NCBI GenBank assembly: GCA_029244935.1
Contig: JAQWQF010000031.1
Location: forward strand, 1 to 39,934
DNA: 39,934 nt
Reading direction: 5' to 3'
Source of the DNA: Methylophilaceae bacterium
Lineage (GTDB): Bacteria; Pseudomonadota; Gammaproteobacteria; Burkholderiales; Methylophilaceae
The notes beneath the pieces were generated by a model. That model saw only the letters and a list, made by a program, of their open reading frames with translations. It was not told the origin of the DNA and did not search any database. How positions within the stretch are numbered: the first letter of the stretch is position 1; the number at the start of each line of letters is the position of its first letter. Position numbers and translations under genes: made by a program. Shown here in pieces: positions 10,908-23,320 of this stretch.

Positions 10908-11672
10908 ATGGCACTCAAAATTATAATCACTGGTGCCACTTCTGGTATAGGGCTTGCCCTTGTAAAACAATATGACAAACAAGGTGCCATAATTGGAATT
11001 CTTGCGAGACGTCGGGACAAACTTATTGAATTACAAAAAACTCTTTCATGTAAATCATTAATTTTCTCTGTTAACGTGACAGACCTTGAGCAATGTAGAT
11101 GGGCTGCAGAAGAATTTATGGCACTTTATGGGGCGCCTGATATTGTTATTGCCAATGCAGGCGTCAGTTCAGGAACACTTACCGAAAATTTTTCCGATCT
11201 AGAAACTATCAAAAAAATTATCGACACTAATCTAATTGGAGTTATGCATACATTTTACCCATTTATTCAACCATTTAAAAAAAGAGGATCTGGGCACTTT
11301 GTTGGAATATCCAGTGTGGCTGGTATCCGGGGTCTACCTGGTGCAGGTGCATATAGCTCATCAAAAGCAGCTCTTACAAACTATCTCGAAAGTCTACGTA
11401 TTGAACTTTCAAATGCCAATATTGATGTAACAACAATTGCTCCTGGTTATATTGTAACCCCTATGACTGATGCAAACAATTTTTCAATGCCGTTTCTAAT
11501 GCCTGCTGAAAATGCAGCTCGTTCAATAATTAAAGCTATTAAAAATAAAAGAAAATATGTCATTGTGCCGTGGCAAATGAATTTTATTGGGAGAATTATG
11601 CACCTCCTTCCAATCTCAATTTGGGATTGGATAGCTAAAAAAGCTCCACGAAAAAAAAATATTACTTTATAA
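10908..11672 (+). CDS. Short-chain dehydrogenase/reductase
   Basis: Classical SDR oxidoreductase of 254 residues, NAD(P)H-dependent, substrate unknown. Cofactor motif TGATSGIG at 8-15, NAG at about 84-86 (IANAGVSS), catalytic Ser in ISSVAG and the YxxxK pair in YSSSKAA. Arg residues after the glycine motif (ARRRDKL) favour NADPH. The C-terminus (VPWQMNFIGRIMHLLPISIWDWI) is hydrophobic and may associate with the membrane. It starts nine bases after dsbA and closes the argS-SPOR-dsbA run; the same neighbour is found beside dsbA in many betaproteobacteria. Confidence 0.9.
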   Translation: MALKIIITGATSGIGLALVKQYDKQGAIIGILARRRDKLIELQKTLSCKSLIFSVNVTDLEQCRWAAEEFMALYGAPDIVIANAGVSSGTLTENFSDLETIKKIIDTNLIGVMHTFYPFIQPFKKRGSGHFVGISSVAGIRGLPGAGAYSSSKAALTNYLESLRIELSNANIDVTTIAPGYIVTPMTDANNFSMPFLMPAENAARSIIKAIKNKRKYVIVPWQMNFIGRIMHLLPISIWDWIAKKAPRKKNITL

Positions 11673-11776: not shown

Positions 11777-13531
11777 ATGTTAGAACACCGTAAGCCCGAA
11801 AATAGCAGCGACTACATCGCGATTCTAATTACTAAATTTCTACGTTTTTTTGCAGACACGTTTTTCTCAAAGCGTTATGGTCACCGTGCTGTAGTTCTCG
11901 AAACCGTGGCTGCAGTCCCTGGTATGGTAGCTGGAATGTGGATTCATTTAAAATGTCTACGAAAGATGGAACACGATAGGGGGTGGATTAAAATTTTACT
12001 AGATGAGGCAGAAAATGAACGTATGCATTTAATGACGTTCATCGAGATTGCTAAGCCCAACTGGTTTGAGCGTGCTCTAATTTTAATTGCGCAAGCGGTT
12101 TTTTGGCACTTCTATTTCATCATTTATATATTTTTTCCTCGTACCGCTCATCGTATAGTTGGCTATTTTGAAGAAGAAGCTGTACTCAGCTATACATCAT
12201 ACCTGGAACAAGTTGAAAACAATCCTGATCTAAATGTTGATGCACCTCAAATTGCTATTGATTATTGGAAGCTTAAAAGTGATGCCAAGCTGATTGATGT
12301 CATTAAAGTTGTTCGCGAAGACGAAAAGGGACATGCTCTTGTTAATCACAACCTTGCCGATACCCTCGACGAAGATTCTAGCAAAAGCCATATCAAACAA
12401 ATTGAATTAAAAAAAGAAGAGCCCAAATTTGAGTCAAAATCTGAAAAACAAGATACTTCAAGGTATCAACAATTTCATTTAGATGATCTCATATTTTTTA
12501 ATCGGGTTGTCATGGCGCCATTAACTAGAAATCGTGCAACAACTAAAGGAGTCCCCACACCAATGATGGCTGCATATTATGAACAGCGAGCAAGTGCTGG
12601 ATTAATTATTGCAGAAGCAACACAAATTAGTCAGCAAGGTCAAGGTTATTATTGCACGCCTGGGATTTATTCTGAGGCACAAACAGAAGGATGGAAAAAG
12701 GTTGTAGATGCAGTCCATGCCCGTGGTGGGAAGATTAGCTTACAACTTTGGCACGTGGGACGTATTTCGCATAATGAATTTCAGCCAAATCAAGGACAAC
12801 CAGTCGCCCCCTCAGCCATTAAAGCAAATTCACAGGTCTTTATATCGTCTGGACTAACCGATGTATCAGAACCTCGCTCCTTAATGGGATATGAAATTCC
12901 TTTAATTGTTGAAGAATATAGGCAAGCTGCTGTTAATGCTAAAAAAGCAGGTTTTGACATGGTAGAGATTCATGGGGCTAACGGCTATTTGATAGATCAA
13001 TTTTTGCGGGATAGCACTAATGTTCGGGCCGATGACTATGGAGGTTCAATTAAAAATCGTACTCGATTTTTATTAGAAATCGTAGATGCTATCTCAACTA
13101 TTTATCCACCTAACCGTATTGGCTGCCGTATTGGGCCATCATCAGAATTTAATGATATACGAGATTCAGACCCACAAACCTTATTTAACTTTATAGCAGA
13201 ACAATTAGGTCAGAAAGGCTTAGGTTATATACATGTGATTGAAGGGCAAACTGGGGGAGACAGAAATAATTCAGTATTTGACTACAATACAATTTATCAA
13301 AATTTTAAAATGCATGGGGGTATTGCTAGTATGGCGAACAACGGTTACGACAAACATTTATCAGAAAAAACGACTGTAGACTTAGTAGCTTTTGGCGTTC
13401 CTTTTATTGCCAATCCAGATCTAGTATATCGCCTAGAACATGATTTACCATTAACAGATGCAGATAAGGATACCTTCTATGGGGGAGCTGAAAAAGGCTA
13501 TACTGATTATCCATTTTATTCAAAAGATTAA
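11777..13531 (+). CDS. Alternative oxidase fused to Old Yellow Enzyme flavoprotein
   Basis: One uninterrupted 584-residue frame encodes two enzymes. Residues 1-196 are a cyanide-insensitive alternative oxidase, a monotopic di-iron quinol oxidase: LETVAAVPGMVAG with E42, ENERMH with E81 and H84, GYFEEEAV with E133, and EDEKGH with E183 and H186, so all six iron ligands are present; the hydrophobic stretch 101-120 is the membrane surface. A charged linker (about 197-230) leads to an Old Yellow Enzyme/NADH:flavin oxidoreductase TIM barrel (233-584) with MAPLTRNR, LWHVGR, and H399/N402/Y404 in HGANGYLIDQF matching OYE1 H191/N194/Y196. The expected FMN-phosphate Arg after AFG is Val541. Ribosome site AAAGAAAGG. 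The fusion could pass reducing power from NAD(P)H through flavin to the oxidase, or simply tether the two; function is inferred. Confidence 0.9.
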   Translation: MLEHRKPENSSDYIAILITKFLRFFADTFFSKRYGHRAVVLETVAAVPGMVAGMWIHLKCLRKMEHDRGWIKILLDEAENERMHLMTFIEIAKPNWFERALILIAQAVFWHFYFIIYIFFPRTAHRIVGYFEEEAVLSYTSYLEQVENNPDLNVDAPQIAIDYWKLKSDAKLIDVIKVVREDEKGHALVNHNLADTLDEDSSKSHIKQIELKKEEPKFESKSEKQDTSRYQQFHLDDLIFFNRVVMAPLTRNRATTKGVPTPMMAAYYEQRASAGLIIAEATQISQQGQGYYCTPGIYSEAQTEGWKKVVDAVHARGGKISLQLWHVGRISHNEFQPNQGQPVAPSAIKANSQVFISSGLTDVSEPRSLMGYEIPLIVEEYRQAAVNAKKAGFDMVEIHGANGYLIDQFLRDSTNVRADDYGGSIKNRTRFLLEIVDAISTIYPPNRIGCRIGPSSEFNDIRDSDPQTLFNFIAEQLGQKGLGYIHVIEGQTGGDRNNSVFDYNTIYQNFKMHGGIASMANNGYDKHLSEKTTVDLVAFGVPFIANPDLVYRLEHDLPLTDADKDTFYGGAEKGYTDYPFYSKD

Positions 13532-13545
13532 GATACAATATTACT

Positions 13546-14376
13546 ATGCTGAATATTAGAAACATATCAATAACGTGTCTTTTAAGTTTGGGGTTTGTTA
13601 CCTCTATACTAGCTAATCAGATCGGTGATATAGCACCTAATTTTACTGCTATGACCACTAAAGGAAAAATTGATTTCCATAACTGGAGCGATAAAAAATG
13701 GGTGGTATTATTTTCTCATCCTAGTGATTTTACTCCAGTATGTACTACTGAATTGGCAGAAGTAGCTAAACTTCAGCCTGAATTTAAAAAAAGAAACGTC
13801 AAGGTAATTGCCTTAAGTGTTGATTCTCTAGAAGATCACAATGAATGGATTCCAGATATCAATCGATATAAAGATAAAATCAAAGAGAAAAGTGCTTTAG
13901 ATAAAATTATCACTAATTTTGGAAAAAATACTGACGTTGATTTCCCATTGATATCTGATGAAAAATTCGAAGTTGCAACTCTTTACGGGATGTACCATCC
14001 AAAGGCCAAACCCAATCAGGGATCCTTTGGTGATTTAAATAAGGCAACAATTCGATCAGTATTCATTATTGATCCAAGTAAAACAATCCAAACTATTTTA
14101 ATTTACCCGAAGAATATTGGTAGAAACTTTAATGAAATTATTAGAATTGTTGATGCACTTCAACTATCTGCAAAACATAATATTTCAACTCCCGCTAATT
14201 GGCAGATGGGAGACCCTGTAATTGTTTCAAACGACATCCCCCCAGAGGATATCCATGAAGAGTTTGATACTGAAGAAGTTAAAATCTTTGAAGATTATTT
14301 AAAAATGGTTGATCAACCAGGTTTTTTTGGTAGCTCAAAAGAAGGCAAATCACGATCCAAAGGAAACTTTAAATAA
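13546..14376 (+). CDS. Exported 1-Cys (Prx6-type) peroxiredoxin
   Basis: Thiol peroxidase reducing H2O2 or organic peroxides. Residues 1-23 look like a signal peptide (ISITCLLSLGFVTSILA before NQ), so it is probably periplasmic, whereas most 1-Cys peroxiredoxins are cytosolic. The mature part starts IGDIAPNFTA and has the peroxidatic cysteine C66 in PSDFTPVCTTE; the conserved Arg lies in KATIRSVFIIDP, and a long C-terminal Prx6 domain (NWQMGDPVIV) follows. No resolving cysteine is seen. The tail 245-276 is Lys/Ser-rich. It begins 14 bases after the oxidase-OYE fusion, so both probably share one transcript, coupling oxygen reduction to peroxide removal. Confidence 0.88.
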   Translation: MLNIRNISITCLLSLGFVTSILANQIGDIAPNFTAMTTKGKIDFHNWSDKKWVVLFSHPSDFTPVCTTELAEVAKLQPEFKKRNVKVIALSVDSLEDHNEWIPDINRYKDKIKEKSALDKIITNFGKNTDVDFPLISDEKFEVATLYGMYHPKAKPNQGSFGDLNKATIRSVFIIDPSKTIQTILIYPKNIGRNFNEIIRIVDALQLSAKHNISTPANWQMGDPVIVSNDIPPEDIHEEFDTEEVKIFEDYLKMVDQPGFFGSSKEGKSRSKGNFK

Positions 14377-14398: not shown

Positions 14399-14833
14399 TT
14401 ATCTGACTAACAATAATTGTGGCCTTGCATCTTCACCACACCAAATAATTGCATTTTGATTATAATTCATTCCTAAATAAATAGCCTGATCTTGAGTAAT
14501 ATCAAAAATTAAATAGCTTTCTTCACCTGCTTTGTCATTTTCACTACATCGGCCATCACCTTTAATATAAGAAAGGTTAAATAACTGAATCTCTTCCTCA
14601 AGTTGCTGATTTCTAATTTGATTTTCTTTTAGAGTTAATTTTTTGCTTTGTGGATTAAATGCCGTTATAAAAGCTGCTGTATTTTTATTAAAAAAACGCA
14701 TTAGACTTTTTAGATCGGGGCTATATTCATCAACTTTAAAAAAAAATGGTGGCTCAGAATAAATATGGTATCTTGCAGCCGTATATTCATTTAACAAGCT
14801 TTGATCAATTTTGGTTTTTTCTTCTCTTATCAT
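14399..14833 (-). CDS. DUF3293 domain protein
   Basis: A 144-residue soluble protein with the DUF3293 pattern: an N-terminal Y-T-AARYHIY segment, then AAFITAFNPQSKKLTLKEN at about 53-71, and a C-terminal region ending in the short hydrophobic PQLLLVR. Function is unknown for the family; it has no signal peptide or membrane helix. It runs convergent to the peroxiredoxin gene with a 22-base gap that contains no clear terminator, and follows the DedA-like gene by nine bases, so it is likely cotranscribed with that gene. Confidence 0.7.
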   Translation of the reverse strand: MIREEKTKIDQSLLNEYTAARYHIYSEPPFFFKVDEYSPDLKSLMRFFNKNTAAFITAFNPQSKKLTLKENQIRNQQLEEEIQLFNLSYIKGDGRCSENDKAGEESYLIFDITQDQAIYLGMNYNQNAIIWCGEDARPQLLLVR

Positions 14834-19571: not shown

Positions 19572-20936
19572 TCAAATTGCTTTAACTAATTCTTCAACAA
19601 CTTTTTTTGCATCCCCAAAAAGCATTGTTGTTTTATCTGAATAAAAGAGCTCGTTATCTAACCCCGCATACCCTGGAGCCATTGATCGCTTATTTACAAT
19701 AATCATTTTTGCTTTTTGCGCCTCTAGAATAGGCATTCCATATATTGCACTCCCGGGAGTTTTTGCCGCCGGATTTACAACATCGTTTGCTCCAATTACT
19801 AACACTACATCAGTCTGACTAAACTCCCCATTTATGTCTTCCATTTCTGCGACCTGTTCATAAGGGACGTCAGCTTCGGCTAACAAAACATTCATATGCC
19901 CTGGCATACGCCCAGCGACTGGATGAATCGCATATTTGACACTGACTCCTTTTTCGATAAGCTTGGTAGTTAGTTCCTGCAATGCATGTTGTGCTCGCGC
20001 TACTGCCAATCCATATCCTGGAACAATAATAACTGAGTCAGCATTAGACATGAGATAAGCAACGTCATCTGCAGAGCCTGATTTTACCGGTCTTTCAGCT
20101 TGGCCAGCTATATCTGCTGTTGTATCCGCACCAAATCCTCCCAGCATGACTGAAATAATGGATCGATTCATAGCTTTACACATTATGTATGACAAGATTG
20201 CTCCAGATGAACCGACGCATGCGCCAGCAATAATCAATACAGAGTTATTAAGAGTAAAACCAATACCCGCCGCCGCCCATCCAGAATAACTATTTAACAT
20301 CGAAACAACAACTGGCATATCAGCTCCGCCAATTGGAACAATTAAAGTTATGCCTAAGACTAGGGCTAAAGTCACCATCATTATGAATGCTGGAATAGAC
20401 TCTGATTGAAAATAAATAACACCACAAAATACCATAGCTATTGCTAGGACTAGGTTTATCAAATGCTGTCCTTGAAATATAAGTGGCTTCGCTCCAAACT
20501 TTCCAGATAATTTACCGAAGGCAACTACTGAGGCAGTGAAGGTAATAGCTCCAATAAATGCTCCAATAAATAATTCAAAACGTTGTACTATTGAATGTGT
20601 CTCAAATATATTGAATACTGCAGCAAGACCAATCAGAACTGCAGCAAGACCAACAAAAGAGTGCATCAAGGCAACAAGCTCTGGCATTTTTGTCATTTGA
20701 ACTGTCTTTGCAGCATAAATCCCAATACTCCCCCCCAACAAAAGAGGGACTAAAATCAATAATAAATTTAGGCTCTCGCCTATCCAAAAGGTTGCTGCTA
20801 TTGCAATCGCCATACCAATCATGCCAAATAAATTACCCGACCTAGCAGATGTAGGCGATGACAATCCTCGGAGAGCCAATATAAATAAAACTGCAGCTAT
20901 TAAATATGCAAAATTTGATAAGGCAAGATTACTCAT
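19572..20936 (-). CDS. pntB: NAD(P) transhydrogenase subunit beta
   Basis: Membrane subunit of proton-translocating transhydrogenase, which uses the proton gradient to drive NADPH formation from NADH. The 454 residues have about eight to nine hydrophobic helices in the first 260 residues and a C-terminal NADP(H)-binding domain III ([18 protein letters not shown], with the GYGxAxxQ variant of the dinucleotide fold, then [18 protein letters not shown] and [15 protein letters not shown]). The ATG overlaps the stop of pntA2 by eight bases. Full length and intact. Confidence 0.96.
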
Positions 20937-21249
20937 TTGGCTGCTCTTCTTTCGTTTTTTTTCGTTTAAACATTTCTAGCATGCGCTGCGTCACAAAAAA
21001 TCCCCCAAAGATGTTAATTGAAGCGAAAAATATAGCAATCGCACCTAAAATGTTGCTAAATGTTACTAACTCCCCGTTATGGTCTCCTACTTGAAGGATT
21101 GCACCTACAATGACAATACCTGATATTGCGTTAGTTACCGACATTAATGGGGTATGAAGTGCAGGTGTTACCTTCCAAACCACGTGATAACCTACAAAAA
21201 TAGCTAATACGAATATAGAAATATTTTGAATAGTAAGTAATTCCGCCAT
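20929..21249 (-). CDS. pntA2: NAD(P) transhydrogenase subunit alpha part 2
   Basis: The membrane-domain half of the alpha subunit, encoded separately as in many alpha- and betaproteobacteria. 106 residues with three hydrophobic helices ([53 protein letters not shown]) and a charged C-terminal tail. The frame extends upstream to 21291, but the ATG at 21249 is preferred because TTAGGAGGAATT directly precedes it and family members begin here. It starts eight bases after pntA1 and overlaps pntB. Confidence 0.93.
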
Positions 21250-21257
21250 AATTCCTC

Positions 21258-22379
21258 CTAAATGAGTTTGTCCCCGCTGGTTAATAAACATCCTTTTACA
21301 AGTTCATCCTCAAGATTCACCGTCAGTTTTCCAGTCTCATCAAATAGTAACTTAATGAATTCTAAAATATTTCGAGCATAAAGGGCTGAGGCATCTGTGC
21401 TTAAAAGGCTAGGTAAATTAGTCATCCCAATAACTTTAACACCGTTGATATCAATAATTTCGTTAGCTTTTGTTAGAGGACAATTACCTGAACCATCCTT
21501 TGCAAGACCGGCAGCCATATCTAAAATAACAGCGCCTGGTTTCATTTTCTTAACGGTATCCCCTGATAATAATATAGGGGGCTCTCGCCCAGGTATTAAA
21601 GCCGATGTAATAATAATATCTGCTAGTATAGCTTTTTCAGCAATTAGCTTACTTTGTCTATCTAACCAGGATTTGGGCATAGGTTTAGCATATCCACCAG
21701 CTCCGGCTGCGTTTTCTTTTTCTTCCTCTGTCTCAAAAGGAACCTCAATAAACTTTGCTCCTAATGATTGAATTTGTTCTTTTACTGCTGGGCGTACATC
21801 TGATGCCTCAACTACCGCTCCCAATCTTTTTGCTGTAGCAATAGCCTGTAATCCAGCCACACCCGCTCCTAAAACCATTACCTTTGCAGCTTTAACAGTC
21901 CCAGCCGCAGTCATTAGCATAGGCATAAATTTTTTATAATGCTCTGCTGCTAATATGACAGCTTTATAGCCGGCGATATTTGCTTGTGAAGACAACACAT
22001 CCATCGACTGCGCCCGCGTATTTCTTGGCAGAGCCTCCAGAGCAAAGGCCGTAACCTTTTGCTCAGAAAACTGATTTTTAATGTTTGTATTGAAAGGTTC
22101 TAGTAAGCCTACAACATATTGGTTTGGTTTTAGGAGCTTTATGTCTTCACTATTCATTGCACGAACCTGTAATATTAAATCAGATTTAAGTATATTTGAA
22201 CGATCAACAATTTTTGCTCCTTCATTCTGAAACATTTCATCTGAAATAGACGCACTGATTCCGGCGCCTCTTTCTATCTGGACTTCTTGCTTAAGTAAAA
22301 TCATCTTCTTAACTGTTTCAGGTGTAGCAGCAACTCTTGCTTCCCCACTAAAAGTCTCTTTTAAAATACCTATTTTCAT
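21258..22379 (-). CDS. pntA1: NAD(P) transhydrogenase subunit alpha part 1
   Basis: Soluble NAD(H)-binding domain I of the split transhydrogenase, 373 residues. It shows [15 protein letters not shown] at the N-terminus, the [20 protein letters not shown] segment around 120-139, the dinucleotide fold [22 protein letters not shown] with the acidic residue in [13 protein letters not shown], and VILDMAA. It is related to alanine dehydrogenase, but the neighbouring pntA2 and pntB decide the assignment. It follows oxyR by 44 bases, GGAG lying ten bases before the ATG. Confidence 0.95.
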
Positions 22380-22423: not shown

Positions 22424-23320
22424 TTAATTCAAAATCGAATTTAGATTAATTTCTTGAATTGATTTAACAATATAATCAATAGCATCCTTCTTAACTGTAC
22501 TCTTTCGATAAGCTAATGCAACACGACGATAAGGTTTCGGATCACTAAAAGGAATAGTCCTTACTAATGGGTTTTCGTACCCTGAAACTGTAGCTGATTT
22601 TGGAAGGACAGATATACCCAAATTAGACGCAACCATATTTCTTATAGTTTCTAGAGAATTTCCTAGTTGAACATCTCGGTTTTTTTCAAGTCCTGGGCAG
22701 GCTTCTAAAATTTGATTGGTATAACAATGATCATTATCAAGTAACATTACCTTTTCTCTACCTAATTCTTTAGCGCTTAATGATGGACTTTTTGCCAAAG
22801 TATGATTAATTGGGACAATTACCTCAAAAGGTTCATCATAAAGATGAATACATTCAATGCCTGATTTTTCAAAGGGTAATGCAATAATTGCAGCATCAAG
22901 CGCACCTCTTTTGAGATGTTCTTCAAGGTTTTTAGTAATATTTTCTTCAACTTCTAATGGCATACTTGGCAAATCTCTTCGTAATATTGGAATTATTAAT
23001 GGGAGTAGATAAGGGGCAATAGAATATATAAGCCCTAAACTAAAAGGATTGGCTAATTGACGATCGCCTTGTCGCGATAGTTCTTTTATTTTTTCAGCTT
23101 CATCCAGCACCACATTAGCTTGATTTATTATAAGCTTTCCTATGGAGGTCGCTGTTACCTTTGATCGACTTCTTTCAAATAAAGATAACCCTAGCTCTTC
23201 TTCAAGCTTTTTAATTGCTAAACTTAAAGCTGGTTGACTTACAAAACATTTTTCTGCTGCTCTTCTAAAATTTTTTTCTCTTGCAAGGGCAACTACGAAT
23301 CTTAGTTCGCTAAGTGTCAA
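22424..23320 (-). CDS. oxyR: Hydrogen peroxide-sensing LysR-type regulator
   Basis: A 298-residue LysR regulator with an N-terminal helix-turn-helix (FRRAAEKCFVSQPALSLAIKKLEEELG) and a type 2 periplasmic-binding-like sensor domain. Cysteines fall exactly at positions 199 and 208 (DNDHCYTNQILEAC), the redox disulfide pair of E. coli OxyR, so peroxide sensing is well supported. The start is a TTG two bases beyond the gyrB stop, giving the family-typical MTLSELRF. Likely targets include peroxidases; the window offers the exported peroxiredoxin but no clear OxyR site was identified there. Its place before the pnt genes may link NADPH supply to oxidative stress. Confidence 0.92.
   Translation of the reverse strand: MTLSELRFVVALAREKNFRRAAEKCFVSQPALSLAIKKLEEELGLSLFERSRSKVTATSIGKLIINQANVVLDEAEKIKELSRQGDRQLANPFSLGLIYSIAPYLLPLIIPILRRDLPSMPLEVEENITKNLEEHLKRGALDAAIIALPFEKSGIECIHLYDEPFEVIVPINHTLAKSPSLSAKELGREKVMLLDNDHCYTNQILEACPGLEKNRDVQLGNSLETIRNMVASNLGISVLPKSATVSGYENPLVRTIPFSDPKPYRRVALAYRKSTVKKDAIDYIVKSIQEINLNSILN

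Follow-up and report, generated by a model that had tools for sequence, protein, structure and literature searches.

This locus raises the question of whether one polypeptide can genuinely combine an alternative oxidase (AOX) with an Old Yellow Enzyme (OYE) and, if so, what such a chain would do. The gene lies at 11777..13531 on the plus strand of the window, that is, the whole 39,934-nucleotide stretch of DNA that we analyzed, and its source genome (1.25 Mb, 95% complete) is of the marine OM43 (Methylophilales) type, with close matches that include isolate HTCC2181. Passages of PMC6794327 place Methylophilales bacterium HTCC2181 in the marine OM43 lineage.

An AOX and an OYE Are Encoded in a Single Open Frame

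The gene encodes 584 aa in one open frame that runs from AOX into OYE with no internal stop, in agreement with the original prediction, whose coordinates and strand were right. The AOX half (residues 2-195; 11780..12361, plus strand) matches PF01786 over residues 2-195 with 263.3 bits versus a cut-off of 22.7, which places it in the alternative oxidase family, while the OYE half (residues 230-584; 12464..13528, plus strand) matches the barrel family PF00724 (Oxidored_FMN) over residues 240-559 with 243.1 bits versus a cut-off of 27. Scores so far above the cut-offs exclude chance for both domains, and the fusion is genuine. Between the halves lies a charged linker with a KKEEP motif (residues 196-229; 12362..12463, plus strand). 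The gene is preceded by a short-chain dehydrogenase (SDR) that serves as a syntenic anchor (10908..11672, plus strand; PF00106) and is directly followed by a 1-Cys-type peroxiredoxin (13546..14376, plus strand; AhpC-TSA and 1-cysPrx_C). Beyond the latter is a freestanding DUF3293 gene on the minus strand (14399..14833; PF11697, 71.5 bits), which by alignment is homologous to the C-terminal domain that certain other genomes of the genus carry fused to AOX. A scan of the fusion gene for internal promoters and terminators gave counts no higher than in shuffled sequence, and a search for RNA features gave no Rfam match at the gathering score. Elsewhere in the window, a LysR-type regulator gene (22424-23320, minus strand), which we presume to resemble OxyR, lies near genes at 19572-22379 that we take to be of the Pnt-transhydrogenase type.

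Both Halves Retain Their Catalytic Residues

Mapping of the AOX half onto the Trypanosoma enzyme (TAO; 3vv9) shows that all six iron ligands are kept. E42, E81, H84, E132, E183, and H186 align with TAO positions 123, 162, 165, 213, 266, and 269, the numbers that we take as the reference for this half. Five of these ligands had been predicted at the same positions; the fourth had been placed at E133, but in the EEE run at 132-134 the residue that faces TAO E213 in the 3vv9 alignment is E132. Among the positions that we take to form the quinol site of the trypanosome AOX, R23, D27, R37, L41, E134, and Y139 are identical to the T. brucei enzyme, whereas four differ (A26 for F, A38 for C, F131 for L, and S138 for T). 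The fusion AOX also departs from known AOX in continuing for about 390 further residues at its C terminus; tails measure 4-31 aa in the non-fused AOX compared, with a maximum of about 45 aa among those of marine gammaproteobacteria.

The OYE half is likewise a complete barrel, as had been predicted, and its sequence, aligned with unfused OYEs, confirms the presence of H399, N402, and Y404, to which we assign what we take to be the H/N/Y catalytic pattern of OYE. It resembles glycerol trinitrate and N-ethylmaleimide (NEM) reductases, and shares with the glycerol trinitrate reductases NerA and XdpB (4jiq and 5epd) the H/N/Y triad, 51-52% identity, and a TMt of 0.94-0.95 (52% and 0.94 for NerA 4jiq), while differing from unfused OYEs, the NerA/XdpB type included, in being joined behind an AOX. 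Against the N-ethylmaleimide reductase subfamily NF007899 it scores 357.7 bits, under the curated cut-off of 403, and we therefore do not file it as NemA. All six fused OYEs aligned are four residues shorter before strand 8 than 12 freestanding OYEs. A degenerate OYE half was also considered, given an FGV in place of FGR and hence the loss of the arginine that we assume to be the FMN-phosphate arginine, and was rejected, since an R is likewise absent there from 11 of the 12 unfused relatives in the alignment.

The Fusion Recurs Within a Marine Genus

The in-frame AOX-OYE join recurs in relatives that are 68-90% identical, HTCC2181 included, and the junction is uninterrupted in other assemblies. 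In a sample of 31 genomes of the marine genus, the source genome (G000) counted, AOX is present in 18 and an OYE-family protein in 7; OYE is joined to AOX in all 7 of the latter, and the genes lie apart in none. The frame is open across the join in 6/7, namely G000, G217, G220, G201 (taken as HTCC2181), G203 (5′ end cut by the contig), and G226. The seventh, G205, is known as two pieces at contig ends (L013, L025), one of which runs from AOX into OYE while the other is a C-terminal piece of OYE. A scan of genome contigs matched both halves in five loci among the best 80 of 214 related stretches (79 loci): HTCC2181, whose fusion sequence lies in public record AAUX01000001.1, AH-578-I23, AH-541-D17, UBA4017 (5′ end cut), and bin.678 (contig ends inside OYE). 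Single chains with both domains, sought in other genomes, were thus found in five records. The original prediction had named homologues always encoded as separate genes in close relatives as a finding that would count against it; this does not hold inside the genus, while in the related genus g4 the genes do lie apart.

In G226 (L163), the AOX-OYE gene, read by eye, has a K at ligand position 183 and QLS in place of the QLW motif; argS and priA are broken in the same stretch, a TGA lies inside the AOX match, and the usual AOX start is missing. These oddities call for caution, as they may reflect poor assembly or decay.

Selection Acts on Both Halves Across a Variable Linker

We computed dN/dS for pairs drawn from five fusions, those of G226 and G205 being left out. 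Where computable, the values were 0.014-0.072 for the AOX half and 0.061-0.097 for the OYE half, far below 1 wherever dS was computable, and by this measure both halves are under purifying selection; pairs of HTCC2181-type with window-type fusions were mostly saturated, with several computed dS > 1. The linker gave 0.095-0.311 where computable, higher than the halves in most computable pairs and near them in 2/6 (G217/G220 and HTCC2181/G203). Its sequence and length vary, and it is poorly conserved between distant fusions. An AlphaFold model of the fusion (53 sequences; mean pLDDT 86.8, pTM 0.62) contains two well-predicted domains, with a pLDDT below 50 at residues 202-226. The linker is predicted to be disordered, and the model fits a pair of domains connected by a loose tether.

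We also scanned the fusion genes for start codons from which OYE might be translated on its own. In the window, ATG, GTG, and TTG are absent from residue 196 to M246, which already lies inside the barrel, and G217 likewise has none of them near the OYE boundary before the barrel. A TTG, ATG, or GTG is found near the boundary in 5 of the 7 genes scanned (G205, G220, HTCC2181, G203, and G226), making separate OYE translation possible there.

AOX Also Occurs Alone or Joined to DUF3293

Ten genomes of the genus (50-96% complete) carry AOX without OYE, four of them with AOX alone (G215, G216, G218, and G227) and six with a DUF3293-like tail (G209, G210, G211, G221, G225, and G229; L018-L023), that of G229 being cut at a contig end. 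The tail was tested with Pfam in G221, four others align with G221, and G229 shows the start of the domain. Because several of these ten genomes are incomplete, we can be more certain that OYE is missing from the AOX gene itself than that it is missing from the rest of the genome. In G219 (L024), we observed an AOX remnant, a frame of about 62 aa beside an SDR and a DsbA-like gene.

The AOX-DUF3293 fusions share with the AOX-OYE fusions the corresponding locus, a related AOX, and a similar short KK/KQ-E-P linker, and differ in having DUF3293 in place of OYE. The linker motif reads KKEEP in six OYE-fused proteins and KREEP in G205, and KKEP (four) or KQEP (two) in the DUF3293-tailed AOX; it is absent from the four AOX-alone tails and from the other AOX tails compared. 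A motif of so few residues is suggestive rather than conclusive. In G226, a DUF3293 frame directly follows the OYE stop on the same strand, with a TTG start and an ATG three codons on, and in the AOX tree the G226 AOX groups with the six DUF3293-tailed genes (100/98). Forcing all seven OYE-fused AOX into one clade was rejected (p-AU 0.001), for a group that was chosen after the tree had been seen and that includes G226 as a long branch. For the other six, a single clade was not rejected (p-AU 0.47), without being present in that best tree, and in a larger AOX tree these six (without G226) form one clade at 92/40. The simplest reading is a single fusion followed by at least two losses of OYE, one of which attached the AOX linker to the gene that follows; an independent second fusion in G226 is possible.

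The OYE Appears To Be the Resident Gene and the AOX the Newcomer

The window, G201, and G220 have the gene order PriA-ArgS-SPOR-DsbA-SDR-AOX:OYE-peroxiredoxin, in which DsbA, SDR, and peroxiredoxin were identified by Pfam, whereas PriA, ArgS, and SPOR are names that we presume from the sequences. The SDR stands in the same order in G201 and G220 and in the g4 genomes G155 and G287, and is missing between DsbA and AOX in G209, G211, G216, G218, and G226. The peroxiredoxin also lies downstream of the fusion in G201, G205, and G220, and had no match in the G226 stretch. In G155 and G287, i.e., in 2/3 of the g4 OYE stretches compared, PriA-ArgS-SPOR-DsbA-SDR is followed by short ORFs and then by a freestanding OYE; the stretch of G290 matched none of PriA, ArgS, SPOR, DsbA, and SDR, so that not every g4 OYE occupies the corresponding locus. 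The AOX of G155 lies about 0.4 Mb from its OYE, and g4 has two rhodopsin-like genes beside AOX. Together with the small genomes, these two genes suggest that g4 corresponds to ‘Ca. Methylopumilus’, described in passages of PMC6794327 as a freshwater group to which two rhodopsins are attributed.

In the OYE tree, six fused OYEs form one clade (100/99) adjoining the g4 OYEs and L051 (98/97). In the AOX tree, where G293 and some others stand on long branches, the AOX of the marine genus falls with G293, Limnobacter, and marine gammaproteobacteria, apart from the AOX of g4 (92/90, 98/89). Taken with the locus comparison, the two trees make OYE look like an old resident and AOX like a newcomer. We infer that the AOX gene came directly upstream of the resident OYE in an ancestor of the marine genus and that the frames fused; later, OYE would have been lost in some lineages while AOX was retained. 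The locus would then document, step by step within a small genome, how a gene arrived and was fused and how a domain was subsequently lost or exchanged.

A Membrane-Tethered Two-Enzyme Protein Is the Favored Reading

We favor, with a probability of roughly 0.6, the reading that this is a selectively maintained fusion that yields a membrane-tethered two-enzyme redox protein, its activities and placement being predicted. The AOX half would be bound to the inner membrane at its cytoplasmic side, oxidizing ubiquinol with O2, and a flexible tether of about 30-40 residues would hold the OYE half at the membrane, where, with NAD(P)H and FMN, it would reduce electrophilic enals, quinones, or similar compounds. 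Electron exchange between the two activities would not be required, and the gain would lie in making two stress-relief enzymes in equal numbers and placing both at the membrane. A role in stress relief would accord with the peroxiredoxin gene downstream and with the protective effect ascribed to an OYE in Staphylococcus (PMC9152700). Given that AOX occurs unaccompanied by OYE in ten genomes of the genus, this gain is probably conditional or small.

One rival, which we consider unlikely, is a fusion without function, in which a stop was lost between neighbors in a compact genome, the product was tolerated, and the join persists because OYE lost its own start. The absence of start codons near the OYE boundary in the window and G217 fits such a history, as do the poorly conserved linker between distant fusions and the lineages that keep AOX without OYE. 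The AOX moreover bears a C-terminal addition in two ways (OYE and DUF3293), and the AOX-DUF3293 join implies that it tolerates such additions, which would fit a fusion without benefit too. However, fusion genes that are for the most part saturated in their synonymous differences still share the join, and none of the seven OYE-bearing genomes of the genus has AOX and OYE apart.

About as unlikely is a coupled NAD(P)H:quinone:O2 oxidase, in which OYE would reduce ubiquinone or a soluble quinone and AOX would reoxidize the quinol with O2, so that the chain would act as a one-protein, non-pumping, water-forming NAD(P)H oxidase. The original prediction had likewise offered a local cycle in which the OYE half reduces a quinone-like substrate and the AOX half reoxidizes it, which is possible. 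Both active sites are intact, OYE without AOX occurs in none of the seven OYE-bearing genomes of the genus, and the source genome has a single COX1-family gene and no match for cytochrome bd; yet a rigid interface is not seen, the linker being variable and disordered in the model, ten genomes of the genus have AOX but no OYE, in G155 the two genes are far apart, and OYE is not known to reach ubiquinone in the membrane. OYEs act on quinones and electrophiles, and passages of PMC9152700 link a Staphylococcus OYE to protection against quinones, aldehydes, and oxidants.

Also unlikely is a single-chain NAD(P)H:quinone:O2 oxidoreductase whose flavin domain feeds quinol directly to the di-iron oxidase; if true, it would provide OM43-type marine methylotrophs with a non-pumping overflow valve for NAD(P)H, by which the remainder of the respiratory chain is bypassed. 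The direct NAD(P)H-flavin-diiron route, also put forward originally, found no support, because the linker is variable and predicted to be disordered, the AOX half retains all its iron ligands along with the majority of the quinol-site residues that were compared, and AOX occurs unaccompanied by OYE in ten further genomes of the genus. The two-enzyme tether is preferred to such an obligate relay since catalytic residues are kept in each half and AOX persists without OYE. As the fusion is present in isolate HTCC2181, the idea of a flavin-fed AOX is directly testable. Finally, the possibility that faulty assembly or sequencing erased a stop or frameshift separating two genes, for which the draft assemblies involved and the broken argS and priA of G226 might speak, can be rejected with near certainty, as the same join is found in the five named independent records, HTCC2181 among them, and dN/dS is well below 1 on either side of it.

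Distribution Outside the Genus

AOX matches were obtained in 52/187 family, 5/200 order, 10/369 class, and 19/398 phylum genomes, in samples that overlap and that include the source genome. Among the matches listed, the longest AOX frame outside the genus is 343 aa (G763), which is too short for AOX plus OYE, and in the genome samples searched no AOX frame listed outside the genus is long enough to hold OYE too. Both AOX and OYE-type matches occur in 16 of the 134 loci with any match; besides the fusion copies, they occur together only in L090 and L095, where the FMN oxidoreductases are 33-34% identical and lie kilobases away. A literature search, judged by titles and abstract openings, found no description of an AOX-OYE protein, and a term search of the main text of selected OM43/Methylophilaceae papers found alternative oxidase unmentioned. 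The architecture, of which the original prediction knew no characterized example, is thus undescribed as far as the literature search reaches; it is a new architecture of two well-known families rather than a new kind of enzyme.

Dissemination by phages or plasmids was considered and rejected, as 0 of the 44 phage and 2441 plasmid records with a match cover 80% of the query at one place, and in each of 78 viral loci in IMG/VR (L178-L255) the listed match is confined to the AOX half. The AOX-like proteins of these 78 loci share 60-77% identity with the AOX half, and their genes are possibly phage auxiliary genes.
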